Shown here piece by piece: positions 17,326 to 54,202 of a stretch of DNA of 64,000 bases. A model generated the notes under the pieces. It saw only the letters and a list, made by a program, of their open reading frames with translations, searched no databases and was not told the origin of the DNA. Positions within the stretch are counted from its first letter, which is position 1, and every line of letters starts with the position of its first letter. The position numbers and the translations under genes are program-made. This DNA is from a virus. The stretch covers positions 62,001-126,000 of the IMG/VR virus record IMGVR_UViG_3300033153_009093; one strand, 5' to 3'.

Positions 17326-17979
17326 ATGGCAACTTATAGATCAGTGTCTAATTTTCCTAGTAATATTAAATCAATGACCGATTTAATAGGAGATAATTAG
17401 AATTTAAAATCTTATGGATCAAAAACTATAAAGTTTACTGCTGACAATACTATACATTTACAAAATGCAACTTAGACAAAAATGTACAAAAGGTCTATGT
17501 TTAATTTATCGGCAAAACTTTCAGGAGTCGAAAAATATTTTTCTTCGTGCTATTCTCCAAATATATTTAATGTTGGAATTACTCTTAATTGTGAAGGTTT
17601 ATATATGGGAGAAAATGGAGATTTTTAGAAAACGGAATTGTTAGAACCTATACAAAGTTAGTTTACTTCTGCTGTAATTTCAAGAATATTTTCTCCCACA
17701 GATTTAATTCAAACATCTAAAACTATTTCTGAAGATGAAGATGGAGAAACTACATTGGTTAATTCAGATGGTACAATTGATAGTTATAAAAAAACATTCT
17801 TTAATAAAAGTGAACAATATAAACTGTATTTTCCCGCTGCATCTAAAGGAGGCGTAGGTGATAAATCGATAGAACAAGAAGATGATATAATCGATGTAAT
17901 TAATTAGAATAAGATATAGTCTTTATCATTAAGTTGTAATGATAAAATTTATACATTAAATGCTACCGCCCTAACATAA
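17326..17979 (+). CDS. Candidate tail tube-type protein (217 aa, TAG-recoded)
   Basis: ATG at 17326 to TAA at 17977-17979 with six TAG codons. It is a mid-sized, well-folded-looking protein with balanced composition, unlike the Asn-rich fibres around it. It sits directly upstream of the tail assembly chaperone, where tailed phages usually carry the major tail or tube protein. The tube assignment rests on this position and on size only; I see no diagnostic motif. Confidence 0.6.
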
Positions 17980-17993
17980 ACCAAGGATGAACA

Positions 17994-18458
17994 ATGATTG
18001 AAAGAGTTGATAATATCAATATGGTACCGGAAGATATTAAAGAGTTATTATTTACCGAAAAAGGTGAATTTATTGCTATAGGAGAAGAAGTTTATCGATT
18101 AAAACCTTTTGGTGTAAAAAAATACTTCGAATTATTACATTTTATTTCAATATATTATACATTATATAATGACGTATTTGCAGAAAGTAATAATTTAAAA
18201 ATTACTTCTTTCTTTGGAAGTTTAGCAAAAAAATTAATTGATAATGAATTAATTGATGATTTTATGAAAACTTTCTTTCCTGAAATTCCAGAAGGTGCCG
18301 AAAATATAAACAAACCTCAATTGGATTATTTATTGGGGGTAATATATAAATTAAATTTTTTATTAAAAGATCGCCCGATTCAGGATCAGGCGACTCGACT
18401 GTCGATTCACAAAATGCAGGAAATGTTAGGCTTAAATCTAAATCAGACGACAAATTAA
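17994..18458 (+). CDS. Tail assembly chaperone, short (unshifted) product (154 aa)
   Basis: ATG at 17994, with AAGGA upstream, to TAA at 18456-18458. The protein is small, acidic and helical, beginning with residues such as MVPEDIKELLFTEKGEFIAI, and lacks TAG codons. Three things point to the phage tail assembly chaperone family (lambda gpG-like): its place just after a candidate tail-tube gene, a slippery heptamer 40 codons after which a -1 frame opens, and tape measure in the neighbourhood. In this family the short form is made in excess and coats the tape measure protein during tail assembly. The frameshift evidence is direct; the family name is inferred from it. Confidence 0.72.
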   Translation: MIERVDNINMVPEDIKELLFTEKGEFIAIGEEVYRLKPFGVKKYFELLHFISIYYTLYNDVFAESNNLKITSFFGSLAKKLIDNELIDDFMKTFFPEIPEGAENINKPQLDYLLGVIYKLNFLLKDRPIQDQATRLSIHKMQEMLGLNLNQTTN

Positions 18459-19534
18459 TAGTCGATGATTCTATAATATAGAATCAATATATTTATTTAA
18501 ATCTTATAACTTTTATAATATATAAAACTGGTTAGTCAATAGATTACATTTTTGGTGATTATATTAAAAAATGTAACCAAACAAATAATAAATGTAATTG
18601 GGGGAGTTGTTTATATTTTCATAATACTATAAAAACAAACTCATCAATAGATTGTGATAATATAAAAAATGAATTAAATGGATTAACAATTAGACAAATA
18701 GTTTTAATAGCTATGTTTTTTAGATATTTTGATTATGAATATTTACTTAATTCAAAATATCAGTTAACTGATATTATTAATGTAGTTTTTTCTAAAGAGA
18801 ATAAATCATTGGATTTTAAAAACATTTATTCTAAATCATTGTTAAGTACAATATTTTCTCAAAAAGAAAATATTGTTATAAATGAAAATGATAAGATGGA
18901 AAATTTAATAAATGAAATATTATTAACAAAAAATAAAAATGAAAAATTTATTAAATTTAATAAATTACGATCATATATAAATTCAACATTTTATAATAAA
19001 GAAAATAGTTTATATATATTCTTAAGATTTATTAATACAAGTTTTGAAGATTTTTTCCAAGATTATTATATACAAAACTCTATATTGCCAAATGATGAAA
19101 GTAAAGATTTTTTCATAAATATATTAATAAATATTTATAAATATATTATGGTTTTTCCTAATCATACTAAAATATATAATGATAAAAATAATTTAAAAAT
19201 GTTAAGAACTAAAGCTAATGCATTAAAATTAAGTAAACGAGAGCCTGATTATTTAAAAGGTGATTAGGATGATCAAAGATTAATGGATTATACTTCAGAT
19301 GATAATGTAAAATTATATATTACATCTATAGATTCTTATTATTATATCTATAAAAAATATGACTCTATAGATGATAAAAATTTTTAGTTAATGATAGAAA
19401 TATTTAATTATTTAGATGATTTGAACAATCTTAAATATAAATCTTTACGAAGCGTTATTATAGAATTAACTAAAATATTAAAGTATAACATAAACCAACA
19501 ATATGATATTGATATAAATGACATTTTTAATTAA
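17994..19534 (+). CDS. Tail assembly chaperone, -1 frameshifted long product (513 aa)
   Basis: Translation of 17994-18362, then slippage back one base, then 18362-19534 gives a 513-aa protein (123 residues before the shift, 390 after). The -1 frame is free of TAA and TGA from 18350 to 19532. It has no ATG, GTG or TTG in its first 120 codons (first ATG at 18713), so it cannot readily start by itself. After the junction come a Ser/Gly/Asp linker and then a mostly helical Lys/Asn-rich domain with four TAG codons. This corresponds to the gpGT-type fusion of other tailed phages, in which the extension binds the tape measure. It ends overlapping the convergent gene by four bases. Confidence 0.72.
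18356..18396 (+). promoter_or_regulatory. Programmed -1 ribosomal frameshift site (slippery heptamer plus stem)
   Basis: T TTT TTA at 18356-18362 is in the correct zero-frame phasing (codons AAT TTT TTA) for tandem -1 slippage. Six bases downstream, 18369-18375 (GATCGCC) pairs with 18389-18396 (GGCGACTC, one bulged C). This makes a seven-pair, GC-rich stem in an otherwise very AT-rich gene. Heptamer, spacing and stem are the three classical elements of such signals. Confidence 0.82.
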
Positions 19535-20064
19535 GTCTAATTAATAATTGACCATTGTATATTAACTGTATAAATATTAGCATTAATTTTTAATATTGGA
19601 ACTATAGAATCTAAATAATTCAGTTCATCATATACTTCATCTTTATATAAAAATGAACTGGTTTTCTAAAAAATATTACTGGTTAATTTCCAATTATTAA
19701 ATTCGTTCTATAAATTAGAAAATATATCCAGTGGCAATCCATCAGGTGCGATTAATAGTATATCATCAATTTTATTCTGAATTTCTGATATTACATCTGA
19801 TGATATATCTATTCCTATATCATCATATGCTAAATTAGCTTGCCATGAATACCCTTTTAACTTATACGAAACCGGTTCAATTGTAGGGGTGGCTTTAAAT
19901 GAAAAAGAATATTTAAAGCCACCCTAATCAGCGTCACAGCCAACTTCGTTACATACACATGCAATTTCCTGATAATCACTTTGAACCTTTCCTACATATT
20001 TCAATGATTGGGATTCTACATTAAAATATGGCATTTTATATAACGATGAACTTTCTTTTATCAT
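19531..20064 (-). CDS. Tail-region protein of unknown function (177 aa, TAG-recoded)
   Basis: ATG at 20064 to TAA at 19531-19533, with four TAG codons (19537, 19675, 19708 and 19924 in plus coordinates). The protein starts MIKESSSLYKMPYFN and has no recognised family. It directly follows the tape measure gene, where small baseplate or tail-completion genes are usual. A perfect 14-bp hairpin lies inside it and encodes an echoing peptide (GGFKYS...FKA). The end overlaps the convergent chaperone fusion by four bases, and no terminator lies between them. Confidence 0.68.
19887..19924. repeat. Perfect 14-bp inverted repeat inside a coding region
   Basis: GGGTGGCTTTAAAT (19887-19900) and its exact complement (19911-19924) flank a 10-base A-rich loop. 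No U-run follows on either strand, so it is not a standard intrinsic terminator. It lies about 350 bases past the point where two convergent genes meet without any intergenic terminator. Confidence 0.7.
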
Positions 20065-20073
20065 TTTAAATCC

Positions 20074-23000
20074 TCATGGCATTAAAATAAACGATTCTTC
20101 ATTATCAGCAGGTGCTATAGCAGGCGATTTATTTAGTAATCCTTCTAATGCCGCTGCATTACTAACTGCTGCTGCCCCTTCCGCTGTTCTATCTCCTATA
20201 TCTGTTTGATGTGTATCAATTGTAATAGGCTCTTGTTGAGTGGCAGTTTTACTAACATCACTATCAATCACAGCACTGCTTATTGTAGCAGTGGCAATTT
20301 CTGACTGTTTGGATACTGTATCAATTTGATGAGTAGATGCTTGTCTAAAGTTATTAACGGCAGAATCAAATTGTTTAGTATCTACCGTTTGAGAAATTAC
20401 ATTACCTAAATTTTCAACTACTGGAATTGCTGCCGCCCCTCCTTTTATTTCCGCCCCAACTTCATTGCCTATTTCAGTTGATAAATTGGGCTGCATTGCT
20501 TGCGCAACACCATCACTACTTACTCTATTTGATGCGTCAATTACAGCTTCTCCCATAAATTTACTATGTTCTTTATTAAAAGTAACATCTTTTCCACCGG
20601 CAGAAATAGCACCATATCCTTTCGATTCCATTAAATATCTACTACGTTCTTCAGAACTAGGAAGTTTTGCGTATTCCATTTTTTCAGTGGCACTTAATCC
20701 TGCGAGTTCTGGAGTTGTTCTAACATCTCCGCCACTTAATAATGATAACATAACATCGCTATTTGTTTTTGCTACTAATTGATCTACTCTTTTCGATGCA
20801 ACTCTATCATATGACCCCGTATCTCCACCTGCAAATTGTGCAACTCCCGCCCTAATTTGATAATCATTTAATCCTAATTTTCTTTGAGATGCTATATTAG
20901 CATCAATGAAGGTAGAGAATTTTTTTCGATCCTGTGGTGTCTGTGCTCCTTCATAACCTTCAAATGCGGTTTTTAATTCTTCAGCGGATGATTGTCGTAA
21001 ACGTTGACGTTGTTGCTAATTAGTACCTAGCATAGTACTTGTAACATTCTGAAATTCTTTACTACCTACAGATGAAGCTTGAAAAGCTAATTGTGCTGTT
21101 TGTTCAGCACCTTGTAAACTCATAGTCTTAGCTTTTAAAGTATCTTTTTCACCTGCTTCATATTCGCTTCTTAATGTTGAAACCTGACCAAATTGTTCAT
21201 CTGATAAAGTTCCCATTTGTCGCAATCTATCAATTCCGGTCATTCCTTCATCATCGACTTTAGATAGATCTTCAACACTTTTAATATCAGTTAAACCGAA
21301 CGCTAATTGTGCCATAGGATCTTTTTTCATTTCTTCAAAACCCTGAGCAGCGGCAAATTGTTTCCCTTTTCCTGTAATATCCATAGTTTGAATAGAATCA
21401 TTTAATGTATCTATAAATGCCATTGTTGTCTTTGAAAAATCACCGGAAGTGGTTAACCCTTCAGAAAATACGTTTACCGCCTTGCCAGCGTTTTCTAATG
21501 AAAAATTAAATTTCTTTTCAACCGATTGACTAGTTGCCTCAAATACTCTACCTAAAGCCAAACTACTTTTTTCAAATTCTTCTGAAGCCATTCTCATTTT
21601 ACCGAATGTATCTAACTTCTGAACACCTTCATCTTGCATAAGTTCAGTTATCTGTACATCTGATAAATCTTTTAATGCAGTATCTTTGCCAAATTTTTGC
21701 TGTGCTATTTCAGTTAATTCATCGCCTCTAATATCACTGACAGATTCTTTTCTACGTTCCATCGCATATTCTAATTCCTGCTTTTTTCCTTTGGAAAGTT
21801 TACTTAAATCTGCACCGGTATATATAGATTGTTGTTTAGCTATTTTTTCAAATGTTTTTTCATTATCAGATATAGCACCAACAAATCCTTTGAAGGCACT
21901 AATTTGTGTAGTATTATAATCTTTTTCTACTGATTGTACCTTTTTTGATGATTCGCTAGTTTTTTGTAATTCTGCTAACTCTTCTTTATCAAATTTACCA
22001 GACTTCTGCGCTACTTCTAAACCTGATCTAAGAACTGGTAATCCTAAAACTGTAGTGGACATTTTTTGATTTAATTGATTAGCACTAGTTATTCCTATTT
22101 CTTTTAATTTGTCAGATGTTGATTCCGCAAGGCCGCCCATTTCGTCTTTAGGAAGTTCAATGTCTCTTTTTTTGAAATATTCAGATTTAGTATCGCCAAT
22201 GGTTTCATAAGGATCTTTTATACCAATTTCCGCTAATTTTCTACCGGTTTCCATTTCAAGAGTAGAATATAAATCCCTTTCTCCTTTAGAAGTAGCTAAT
22301 GAGCTTCTGACTTGCGAAAACATTTTACTTTGAATTAAACTGCCTTGATTTAATTCTTTAAATAACGCCATTCCTTTTTCATCACCTAAAGGAGCAACTA
22401 AAGAATTCAATCTACCTTTTTCAGCTTGTAAAATTGTTTGTGTCTGGTTTTTATCTTCAAAATCAACAACTTGTAAGGTATCAATAAATTTGCCAGTCAT
22501 TTCTTTATTAATTTTAGCAGAGTTAACAATTACTCTTTTTACTTTACTAAAATCTTTTTCTTCAATACCTTCCTGCATCACTTCATTTAAACCTTGCGAT
22601 ACTTGCGAACTTACCGCAGCCGATCCAAGATATTCAGAAACTGTATTTCTAGGGCGAATATCTTGATCTTGTTTTAAATAATTAATCAATCTATATGAAG
22701 CCGAAGACCTTTCATCATCGTAGTTTTCCAAATAGCCTGTATCAGAAGTGCCATAAATATCAGCGACTGTATTAATAGCCTTTAGTTGAACATTTTTATT
22801 TCTTTCTGCATCTGTTTTTAATTTCCTAGTTGTTACTAATTTTGTTTCCTCCGCTCCGGTTAGGCCGCCTCCTGCAATTTCTTTATATTCTAATTCTGCC
22901 ATATCGACATTTAAATCTTCAATTTTTTTATTATAATATTCAGCCCCGCCCATGAATCCAGTAGTTAACCCTTTTAATCCTGTTGCTTCTGTTGTCATTT

Positions 23001-26000
23001 TACTTTTACCAGAAAAATAATCTGAACCTGCCTAAGTAGTACCCATTCCAGCAGCGGCAAGACCTAATAAAGGTAATAGTGTCCCGCCTGACATTATAGC
23101 CGCTGTAGCCCCGCCCCCAATTAATAATGTTTTTAATAATGCATTATCCATCATTGATTTCTTTCCGGCTTGCTTTCTTAATTTTTCATTACCCATTACA
23201 GATCCACCGGCTTTCATTAAAGCTGTTCTATCAACCCCTGCAAAATCAATAGACTCCATATCTAACATATAAGATCCTTGTTGTTCGCTTATTTCTCTAT
23301 CTGATTTTAATTTTGATCTGTATAATTCTAAACCTGTAGTTAAAACTGCAAGGCCTCCGCCTAATCCTCCTACTTTACCCAATGAAGCGGTAAATGCTCC
23401 TACTCCCATTAATGACCTTGCACCTAAAAGGCCCCCGCCTAAAAGGCCAGTGGCTCCTATACCTGCTCCCATTGCTTGGCCTTTCGACATACCGAGTTCT
23501 TTAGCAATGTCATGACTTTGCATACCTACAAGTAAAGGGTCTATGAATGATGCCAACCCGCCTGCAACTCTCCCTATATTTCGCATTGTACCAGAACGTC
23601 TTATTAATGAACTTAATCTATTAACATTTCTTAATGCGCCTAATCTTTTTCCGCCTGTTTCCATTGTCCCTGTAACTTGCCTAAGTAATGAGGGGTCACT
23701 TTCTAACGCCTGTAATGCAACATTTCCGGCTAATGCTCGTTGTTGCTGCGAAGGTGACATTTGCATTAATGAACTTACGCCCCCGGCTCTATATCTTGTA
23801 AATTGTTCACTGCCAACAGCTTCCATTAAATTTAATTGCCGCCTTCCTCCTAATGCGGCTCTTACATTACTAGGAACATCAACAGAAATATTTGCCAACG
23901 CTTCTTTATTTCTAGTTAATAACCTTGTCATTTTATCAGCAATTTTTGGGCTTGTTAATGTACTAAAATCATATGAACCTATACCTTTTAAAGTATCTCT
24001 TGTTTTTGCGGTTGATATCATTTTATCTATTCCGGGCATTACCCGCGAAACTCGTTGTTCCATTGTTGTAACGGCTTTGAATCTATTATTTCTAAATCCA
24101 TCTAATAAACCTCGTGTATGATCAGAAGATTCTCTTAACTATCTTCCATTCTGTTTCAATAACCTCAATTGATCTGTTGATATATTGCCTGTTGATATGT
24201 CAGCTATATTTACATTTAAATCTTTTGCAAACCTCGTTAAAGCTCCTGTATCAGTAACTCTTGATAAATCCCTCACAGATGAAATATTCGCTATTTTAGT
24301 ATAATCTTTTGCGGCTCCTTGAAGTTTTGAAACCATACCGGACGTTATTTCATCGCCTATTTTAAAAGTATCACCGTATGAACTTTTCCCACCTGTATAC
24401 CTAATGGCTCTTTCGGTAGAACGAGCCATGTCATAACCATAGGAAACTCCCGATAACTCTCTTCTTAATGAAGAAACGTCTGTTCGTTTGGCAGCCCTAA
24501 CGCCTTTATTCATATATGTTTGATTTTCTAATGATTCAACGCTTCCCATTTTTAATGTATCAGATAATTTATTTATATCCGATTCCTTAAACCCTACACT
24601 CTTTAATCTATCAAAATAGTTAGTAAATGCCTTTTGATTACTTCTTGACATTGTAGATAAATCCATTGATCTATCTAATGCGCCTCCAATGACATTCATT
24701 CTTGTACTGGCTCCTGCTCCTGCCCGTCTTGTTGAAATGTCACCGCTTACTGATTCAATTTGTTTAGTTGCTCTTGTAATATCACTTGTAAGAATATTGT
24801 CCAATTGAGTTCGTTGAGTTTCTAATAAACTGCCAATATTTCCCCTTGTTATTTTTCTAGGCAAAACTTGTCCCGCACCAACACTATCAGCGAGATTATC
24901 TATAGCTGTTATACTACCGCCAGTACGTGCTCTAAATGCCTCTGTAGTGGACGATGGAGTACCCTACATACCTCCGCCTGCCTTTCTACTCATTCGATTA
25001 AATAGGCCTTGTTCAAACCCTTTTTCAAGCAAGGCAGGTATCAATCTTAATCCACCTACAGCACCAAGAGCCGGTAGCGCTAAATTTGCCATGGAACCCA
25101 TTGTGCCCATGGGACTTTCCATAATAGCACTACCGATTCCAGATATGATACCAGATGCCATATTAGAAAAAGTTTTAGTCGCGACCGCAGCAATATCACC
25201 TCCTATTAATCCTAAAACGTCACCAAATTTACCAGATATGACTCCGTCTATTTTTAATGTGGTATCTTTCTATATTCCTCCCATATCATCAATGAGAGTT
25301 TCAAATCGTTGACCTATCTCATCCATTGACAAGCCTTCAAAGTTTTTTTCCATAGCATCCATAACTTGAGTCATTGGCATAGATTTATATGTACCAACTC
25401 CAACACCCATAAATTTAGAAACCGCCTGATCCATTCCGCCTTGAAATGGTTTAAACATACTGCTGGCGTAATTTAAAAATTCTTTATTGGAACTTAATGT
25501 AGAAAATCCCGTTTGAAATGCAGTAGCCGCACCGGTTACAGTTTTATATAACCCTGTTCTTTCCATAACTTCTTTTGTTACCATTTGTAATGAATCTCCG
25601 AAGTTATCTACTTGTTTACTAAATGTATATTTTTGTTTTTCTAATACATCTAGTCCAACAGCTTTACCAATAAATCTATGCAAACCTTCTACTAATTTTG
25701 TAGGATCTGAAGACATTTCTGCTTTTGTCATACCACTCAATGACTCAATGACTTCGGGCGAAACGTTAAATCTCATTTGCATTGATCGCCATGAACCCGA
25801 CATAGCTTCGACCATTGAAAACATTGCACCTTGCATGCCTTGTTCAGGTGCAATTAAAGATAACCCTGATACTGTTTCCATTAATTGATTTTGAAATTTT
25901 TCCGATGTTAAATGAGGTTTAACTTCGGGATATACTGCCATTTTAGTTAATGCACCTAACGCTTCTTCTGTTTTAATAGGGTAATCTCTTGCCATTTTTA

Positions 26001-26715
26001 AAGCACTTTTCAACGCTTTATCAGCTTGTTTTTCGCCTCCTAATGCAGAACCTAACATTGCCTGACTTTGATATAAACCTTCGTACATATCAAAAGGGGA
26101 AGTTAATTGTGATTTGAAACCTTCGACAGCAGAACCAATCCCAGTAAATCCCTTTGCGAAACTTTTTACAGGAGTAAGAGCTTCATTCATTCCAGTTATA
26201 GGCTCTATAACAGTTTCGGCCATTTTCATTTGAGCAGGAAAAACAGCACCAAACATCATCGCATCTTGTACAAATGCCGCAGGGTTTAATGTATCTTTTG
26301 CCCTGCTTATTGCCGATGGTGCTTGAAAATTACCCATTCCTTTATTTATTCCCGACCCTATAGCAGATGATACATTTCTTGAAATATTATTACTAAAAGA
26401 TGGGTGCTGAAATCCAGACTGAAATAAATCGCCTATATCGGGAACTCTTGGTCTTGATATATCATAACTTGGCGCACGGCCTCCTTGTTGTTGTCTAACA
26501 TTTCTAGTACCCTGAGATATCTCACTTAAGCCAGAAATCAACCCGGTTGTATTTTTACCTAAAGAGGTATCTATTTTTCTTACAGAATTTACTAGTCCTC
26601 CTAAATGTGATACAAAATCATTAAACCCATTATTTGCGTTACCTAAATGTCCACTAAAATCATCTAAGTTATTTAATAAAGTATCATTAGGTAATATATT
26701 TCTATTATCGGCCAT
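20074..26715 (-). CDS. Tape measure protein (2213 aa, five in-frame TAG codons)
   Basis: One frame runs from the ATG at 26715 to the TGA at 20074-20076. It is interrupted only by TAG at 25270, 24964, 24139, 23032 and 21016. The protein is long, mostly alpha-helical and Lys/Glu/Gln/Ser-rich. It has central glycine/alanine-rich hydrophobic segments (for example GIGATGLLGGGLLGARSLMG and LLIGGGATAAIMSGG) between coiled, charged regions. That is the hallmark of tape measure proteins, which set tail length and help DNA pass the host membrane. The composition gives it clearly higher GC than its neighbours. It carries fewer TAG codons per length than other virion genes. It is on the opposite strand from the chaperone gene, although the two families are normally adjacent and collinear. 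No lytic domain is recognised. Confidence 0.82.
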
Positions 26716-46713: not shown

Positions 46714-46787
46714 TGGACTCGGTTAAGAGAATCGAACTCCTATACACAGATTTAGAGTCTGTTATCTTGCCATTAGATCAAACCGAG
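46714..46787 (-). tRNA. Amber suppressor tRNA, anticodon CUA (reads UAG)
   Basis: The minus strand folds into a full cloverleaf. The acceptor stem CTCGGTT pairs with AACCGAG. A four-pair D stem (ATCT/AGAT) closes a GG-containing loop. The anticodon stem ACAGA/TCTGT holds the loop CTCTAAA, and the T arm AGGAG closes the loop TTCGATT. The 3' CCA is encoded (46714-46716). The loop places C34 U35 A36 as the anticodon, complementary to UAG. The discriminator base is U73 and the first pair C1-G72, so sequence alone does not fix the amino acid; Gln is expected from known table-15 phages. Its presence explains the TAG-interrupted frames across the window. Confidence 0.92.
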
Positions 46788-53805: not shown

Positions 53806-54202
53806 TTATAATTGTTTTATTTCTTCGATCAATTTAGTAGTTGAATATTGTTTATAATGATTTATTGTCATAGTTACTTTTGCAATATCTGAACCAATTA
53901 TTTTATTATGGTCATAATCAGCACCTTTAACAATTATATCCGGCTTAATTTTTTTTATCAATTCATAAGGTGTATCTTCTTCAAATATATAAACTTCGTC
54001 AATATAAATTATACTATATAACATTTCCAATCTATCAATATCATCCATTACAGCACTTCTATTTTTTAATCTATAAATTGAATCATTGGAATTTATACCA
54101 ACTATCAATTTATCATTTGGAAATATATTTTTTATTTCTTTAAATAATGCGATATGTCCTGGATGAAAAAAAAAAAAAACATCCATTAGTGAATATTTTC
54201 AT
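53806..54202 (-). pseudogene. RfaE2-like nucleotidyltransferase, frame broken or switched by a T14 tract
   Basis: An ATG at 54202 with AAAGG upstream starts MKIFTNGCF, the classical first strand of RfaE2/HldE-C and glycerol-phosphate cytidylyltransferase enzymes. A run of 14 T then replaces the expected F-D-x-x codons and shifts the frame. The frame carrying HPGH and the rest of the domain (LKNRSAVMDDIDRLEML, EDTPYELIKKIKPDIIVKGADYD) runs to TAA at 53806-53808. Exactly 12 T would restore canonical spacing, and 15 T would also be in frame. An internal ATG at 54186 could give a 126-aa protein lacking strand one. The gene may be off, phase-variable, rescued by slippage, or mis-assembled. The enzyme family is clear; the reaction is probably sugar-phosphate nucleotidyl transfer. 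Confidence 0.72.
54166..54179. repeat. Homopolymer tract (A14 on plus, T14 in the gene)
   Basis: Fourteen consecutive A on the plus strand lie exactly over the active-site motif codons of the nucleotidyltransferase gene. The tract is flanked by GGATG and CATCC, which are inverted copies of each other. Tracts of this length slip readily in replication and transcription. Confidence 0.9.

Follow-up and report, generated by a model that had tools for sequence, protein, structure and literature searches.

A probable −1 frameshift producing a tail assembly chaperone-like fusion in a large phage with sense UAG codons, compared with two relatives

The window analysed here is a 64,000-nt stretch (positions 62001-126000) of a 180,374-bp virus record (IMGVR_UViG_3300033153_009093; G000), and in it a −1 slip at U UUU UUA near the end of a short ORF is likely, in our judgement, to yield both a short protein and a 513-aa chaperone-like fusion. 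Most ribosomes would finish the ORF at 17994-18458 and release the short form, most likely a tail assembly chaperone, while a minority, aided by a hairpin at 18369-18396, would move back by one nucleotide on U UUU UUA (18356-18362) and continue in the −1 frame to 19534, giving the fusion. Phage lambda uses G to coat its tape measure protein and the T part of GT to bring in tube subunits (PMC5009743). On the G/GT analogy, the window phage would have a plentiful short form that covers the tape measure protein and a scarce long form whose extension draws in subunits of the tail tube. The UAG codons of the extension would be decoded by a phage CUA tRNA, probably inserting Trp, and because the extension holds four of them the full-length fusion would also need this tRNA.

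The comparative case comprises three sequences in all: the window phage; G001 (IMGVR_UViG_3300039008_000120, 232,818 bp), found via its major head protein (67% identity); and G002, a 197,384-bp contig in a Neomarinimicrobiota MAG, presumably a mis-binned phage, found via a tape measure fragment (87% identity). Initial searches for relatives that started from the chaperone, the tube, the tape measure, the terminase or a chimeric query returned none, and the terminase alignment had no usable stretch. Among 50,697 phage records, tblastn found no hit to the chaperone, the extension or the tape measure fragment. One further candidate, G221 (E 5.6e-4), was dropped, as it resembles bacterial coding sequence.

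Slip site, hairpin and start-less frame in the window phage

The features of the region are the following:

17326-17979, plus strand: upstream gene, probable tail tube, so named from position only; homologs adjacent in both relatives
17994-18458, plus strand: short product of 154 aa, probable tail assembly chaperone (G-like); homologs at 45% (E 1e-36) and 46%
18347-18349, plus strand: final TAA in the −1 frame, which is open from 18350 to 19534
18356-18362, plus strand: slippery heptamer U UUU UUA, in phase (0-frame Phe-Leu), read from the sequence
18363-18368, plus strand: six-base spacer, read from the sequence
18369-18396, plus strand: GC-rich bulged hairpin, probable frameshift stimulator, about −11 kcal/mol; absent in the relatives
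18362-19534, plus strand: −1 extension (T-like), 390 codons after the slip; homologs at 47% (E 6.5e-106) and 44% (E 4.7e-99)
18713-18715, plus strand: first ATG in the −1 frame, 121 codons in and 257 nt past the start of the 0-frame stop
19531-20064, minus strand: convergent conserved gene, 177 aa, between extension and tape measure; present in the relatives
20074-26715, minus strand: probable tape measure protein, 2213 aa; 2450 and 2771 aa in the relatives

The short ORF reads TTT (18357-59) and TTA (18360-62) at the heptamer and ends at TAA 18456-18458, with TAG directly after. The hairpin pairs GATCGCC with GGCGA.CTC in seven pairs plus a bulge and has an inner GATT/GATC helix (−11.0 kcal/mol). 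The initial annotation was accurate on the position and phase of the heptamer and its six-base spacer (18356-18368), the seven-pair GC-rich stem, the 390 codons of the −1 frame, the lack of a start in the first 120 of them and the junction peptide NFLIKRSP. The fusion adds 390 residues to 123 and is joined as YKLNFL/IKRSPDSGSGD.

A distance of 6 nt places the hairpin within the 5-9 nt spacing of stimulators at canonical −1 sites, and an effect on slippage is predicted. It is the strongest of 2174 36-nt folds in 17326-19534, and about 0.2% of 36-nt windows across the 64 kb attain its fold strength. Over 40 nt its z-score is −1.96, with equally good folds in 10 of 200 shuffles; over 78 nt it is +0.22, and the structure is therefore local. 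In-frame X XXY YYZ heptamers number 842 in the ORFs of the window phage (1.8% of codons), and six of these, two of them overlapping at the 18356 site, are followed by a 40-nt fold of about −11 kcal/mol or lower; among the 41 in-frame T TTT TTA heptamers, the 18356 site alone has a 40-nt downstream fold at or below −9 kcal/mol. The heptamer by itself is common in such AT-rich DNA, and the combination with its location is uncommon. The case consequently rests on combination and place, not on fold energy alone, because the z-score is modest and vanishes over longer windows. HIV-type sites have the same U UUU UUA, a spacer of about 6 nt and a downstream structure, but the context here is that of a bacterial phage, and in E. 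coli U UUU UUA is weaker than A AAA AAG (PMC5009743). Inspection by eye for a Shine-Dalgarno-like stimulator 5' of the slip site found only GGGGG about 17 nt upstream in the window phage and none in the relatives, and Rfam gave no match. The sole homopolymer of at least 10 in window-phage ORFs is a T14 run near the start of an ORF at 53806-54186 (minus strand).

The −1 frame has no ATG, GTG or TTG in its first 121, 107 and 116 codons in the three phages, respectively. Over the 67 codons that begin with KLIVD at the 0-frame stop, the pairwise differences at codon positions 1/2/3 in the −1 frame are 13/14/35, 15/13/30 and 6/3/30, and the other frames contain 2-10 stops. As the differences concentrate at the third position, this start-less stretch is translated in the −1 frame and under protein selection. 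Direct computation yields the signals, the open frame and, for three phages, selection for coding in the frame that lacks a start, and we infer from sequence that frameshifting is the mechanism, as we do its efficiency and the chaperone role. Upstream, in the overlap, the −1 frame is stop-free in all three phages, with a chance of 0.038, 0.12 and 0.39, respectively, under random synonymous codons, and clear conservation in that frame begins only at KLIVD.

This last feature would also fit non-AUG reinitiation at the 0-frame stop. On that rival view the extension is a protein in its own right, whose translation is coupled to that of the short ORF and begins at a non-AUG codon overlapping the stop (ATA 18458-18460 in TAATA), or else at ATG 18713. 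Strong conservation does start exactly at KLIVD, and its Ile codon overlaps the stop in the three phages (ATA, ATT and ATA). ATA and ATT are very rare start codons, however, and a consistent Shine-Dalgarno sequence is absent; a coupled start would also leave unexplained both the slip sites and the −1 frame held open upstream in three phages, and with initiation at 18713 translation would miss 85 conserved codons. We regard independent initiation as quite improbable, and return to frameshifting as the preferred reading.

Within the extension, C75, C82, C87, H91 and C102 are invariant in the three phages (−1 frame 18350-19534, residues 75-102), a Cys/His pattern that may possibly form a zinc site.

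Slip signals in the two relatives

Both products are preserved in the relatives: the short ORF is 43-46% identical to that of the window phage in G001 and G002, has 153-154 aa with a similar end point in the three phages, and is followed by an extension of 43-47% identity over its whole length (about 390 aa; window phage vs. G001 and G002). The slip region is different. Where the window phage reads TTT TTA TTA AAA GAT CGC CCG, G001 reads TTC ATG ATT AAA AAA AAA ACT and G002 reads TTC TTT TCA AAA AAA AAA CCA; the heptamer and hairpin of the window phage were sought in both and are absent. Each relative instead has an A10 run, in phase for A AAA AAA and located about three codons downstream of the window heptamer position, which is the only A-run of at least 10 inside the examined ORFs of either genome (ORFs of at least 120 codons, the genome being read in 20-kb pieces). 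No hairpin comparable to that of the window phage follows it, the best 40-nt downstream folds reaching −5.5 and −1.9 kcal/mol.

The conservation of heptamer and stem that was expected initially is thus contradicted, and relatives lacking them had been named as an observation against the frameshift; the fusion is nonetheless conserved, because the relatives use another slip site. The proposal of a −1 programmed frameshift holds for its architecture and for the start-less coding extension, while the signal named for it is particular to the window phage. The simplest account of the aligned sequences would be that the two-product output was kept while the slip signal was exchanged. Since heptamer and hairpin are unconserved, the comparison cannot show that the exact site of the window phage works.

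The A10 runs raise the alternative of transcriptional slippage, in which RNA polymerase would add one base in a homopolymer (A10 in the relatives, T6 in the window phage) and the fusion would arise by ordinary translation. Such slippage requires no stimulator, and in the relatives the uniqueness of A10 among the examined ORFs and the lack of a downstream structure favouring ribosomal slippage are both in its favour. The window phage, however, has a run of only T6, which is short for transcriptional slippage, and this run is a canonical in-phase heptamer followed by the strongest hairpin of the region. As a general explanation we find it improbable; ribosomal frameshifting is most likely the mechanism in the window phage, and the relatives possibly use either ribosomal slippage on A AAA AAA or transcriptional slippage on A10. 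It could also be argued that an assembly or sequencing error in a homopolymer split one fused gene, given that the slip sites are homopolymers and that A10 runs are error-prone. Yet the same frame relation recurs in three independent assemblies at different homopolymers (T6 vs. A10), and the short ORFs all end at a similar place (153-154 aa), which makes an error highly improbable.

Gene neighbourhood and the chaperone assignment

The relatives keep one gene order, i.e., two structural genes, the probable tube, the short ORF, the −1 extension, the convergent gene and the probable tape measure, which in G002 was followed from the probable tube onward. Position and architecture, the two grounds for the assignment, suggest that the short ORF probably encodes a tail assembly chaperone. 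The initial identification as such is upheld by both in three phages, but finds no counterpart in the databases, as neither the short ORF nor the extension matched PHROG, Pfam or PDB. Profile searches likewise gave no family match for the probable tube and tape measure. Known tail assembly chaperones are themselves very divergent. AlphaFold models of the two domains were poor (mean pLDDT 50 and 43), too low for a structure search, and no significant similarity was found to T4 gp26, T4 gp51 or Immutovirus gene 231. A likeness to T4 gp26 consisted of a short local match (VRVGSKIINCRAFTLKEYLELI vs. IAIGEEVYRLKPFGVKKYFELL; hhalign probability 1.5%), which is not significant and was discarded.

The arrangement resembles lambda G/GT, whose gene order is tube, G/GT, tape measure, in having a short product and a −1 fusion, a slip near the end of the short ORF and a place next to the probable tape measure gene. 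It differs from lambda in the lack of detectable sequence homology, in the length of its extension (390 codons), in the use of U UUU UUA with a hairpin and in the UAGs of the extension; the location of the tape measure gene on the opposite strand, with one convergent gene in between, is a further difference and speaks against the chaperone model.

The window is 24% GC, and its phage has matches to phage families of terminase, major head protein, DNA polymerase, rIIA and ribonucleotide reductase, and its TerL, major head protein, family B polymerase and rIIA are T4-like. At 26% identity, the terminase (TerL) of the T4-like Flavobacterium Immutovirus is the nearest in phage records, and the head and replication genes thus seem to be of T4 type, though far diverged. 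T4 has been described as an exception to the G-T frameshift rule (PMC5009743), and T4-like phages are characterised, in the passage of PMC10885494 that cites Vladimirov, Gautam and Davidson (2022), as having separate short and long genes and no frameshifting. Their head and replication genes are akin to those of the window phage, while their chaperone arrangement differs.

Two further observations were made on these genomes. The family B DNA polymerase ORF (714 aa; G000:C1:39814-43416; L003/L004) breaks off past motif B, and a homing-endonuclease-like ORF comes next, as in a split gene, an intron or an intein. ARAGORN reported tmRNA-like genes in two phages (L008:6981-7339, minus strand; L036:16162-16529, plus strand).

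Meaning of UAG in the three phages

The features bearing on UAG are listed below, the synthetase of the window phage lying outside the window:

18479-18481, plus strand: TAG 1 of the extension, opposite TAG in G001 and Tyr in G002
18533-18535, plus strand: TAG 2 of the extension, opposite Tyr in both relatives
19265-19267, plus strand: TAG 3 of the extension, opposite Phe in both relatives
19385-19387, plus strand: TAG 4 of the extension
46714-46787, minus strand: tRNA with anticodon CUA, C1-G72, discriminator U73 and encoded CCA
G000:C1:134073-135023, minus strand: class Ic synthetase (TrpRS/TyrRS-like) of the phage record, weakly nearer TyrRS
G001:C1:63496-64365: class Ic synthetase of the phage record, TrpRS-like (TIGR00233, E 2.5e-22)
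G002:C67:20674-21693: class Ic synthetase on another contig of the same MAG, TrpRS-like (TIGR00233, E 1.6e-18)

The evidence for UAG as Trp is the most surprising thing near the frameshift site. The extension has four TAGs in the window phage, two in G001, the second of which stands opposite Trp in G002, and none in G002, so that the dependence of the long form on both frameshifting and suppression, claimed initially, applies to the window phage and is not conserved. The short form terminates at TAA and has no UAG dependence. TAG is also present in many other structural genes, with 289 in-frame codons in the main ORFs of the window.

Opposite 632 TAG codons, the orthologs of the other two phages have Trp in 133 cases, Tyr in 122, Phe in 72 and Gln in 3, although these sites are not independent events, because both directions of each pair were counted and sites are shared between pairs. 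At the 180 TAG sites in well-conserved context the counts are 76 Trp, 44 Tyr, 21 Phe and 0 Gln. Compared with the substitution patterns of sense residues, TAG is fitted best by Trp, with Tyr 241 and Gln 847 log units behind. Sense Trp codons are found mainly opposite Trp, then Tyr and Phe; TAG faces Tyr more often than they do, which gives a mixed assignment, or Tyr itself, some plausibility. TGG (0.43%) and TAG (0.61%) together make up about 1% of codons, a usual Trp content. By these alignments UAG is a sense codon in all three phages, probably read as Trp and not Gln; the phage is thus recoded, as had been noted, though the usual Gln assumption does not fit. Our translations were made with TAG=Q, which leaves the frames unaffected, and such residues are probably Trp.

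By ARAGORN, the CUA tRNA is the sole tRNA of the window phage, and the relatives have CUA tRNAs at L042:14764-14839 and L028:14160-14236. C1-G72 and U73, unusual for a bacterial tRNA, are common to the three, and their tRNA bodies differ. The MAG contig phage has about 20 tRNA genes (L033, L034; G002:C208:100001-140000). A class Ic synthetase gene occurs in all three sequence sets, adjoining the same neighbour gene, and its product is a candidate for pairing with the CUA tRNA. Among PDB entries a TrpRS matches the G001 enzyme best, and the synthetase is divergent, as all matches are below curated cut-offs.

Code 15, with UAG read as Gln, has been experimentally validated in crAss-like phages (PMC9523058). 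The phages described here share with code 15 phages a CUA tRNA and in-frame UAG in many genes, structural genes being prominent, but their UAG aligns with Trp and other aromatic residues and they carry a TrpRS-like synthetase. In the searchable papers UAG is given as Gln or an unknown residue in phages, and a short search of open papers found none describing UAG as Trp in phages. If true, UAG as Trp would call into question the routine choice of code 15 whenever a phage has recoded UAG, and these phages may offer a natural UAG/Trp tRNA-synthetase pair.

Taken jointly, we lean slightly towards a large-phage lineage that would read UAG as Trp via an orthogonal-looking pair of CUA tRNA and TrpRS-like synthetase and would also have exchanged the slip signals of its chaperone, A10 (possibly transcriptional) for U UUU UUA with a hairpin (ribosomal) or the reverse, with the products unchanged. 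If the chaperone reading is right, a frameshifted chaperone-like gene would stand beside T4-like head and replication genes, a notable finding because T4 is the described exception to the frameshift rule. The three phages would allow ribosomal frameshifting and homopolymer slippage to be compared as a natural pair, and would indicate that a tail gene can go on yielding its two products after its recoding signal has been replaced.
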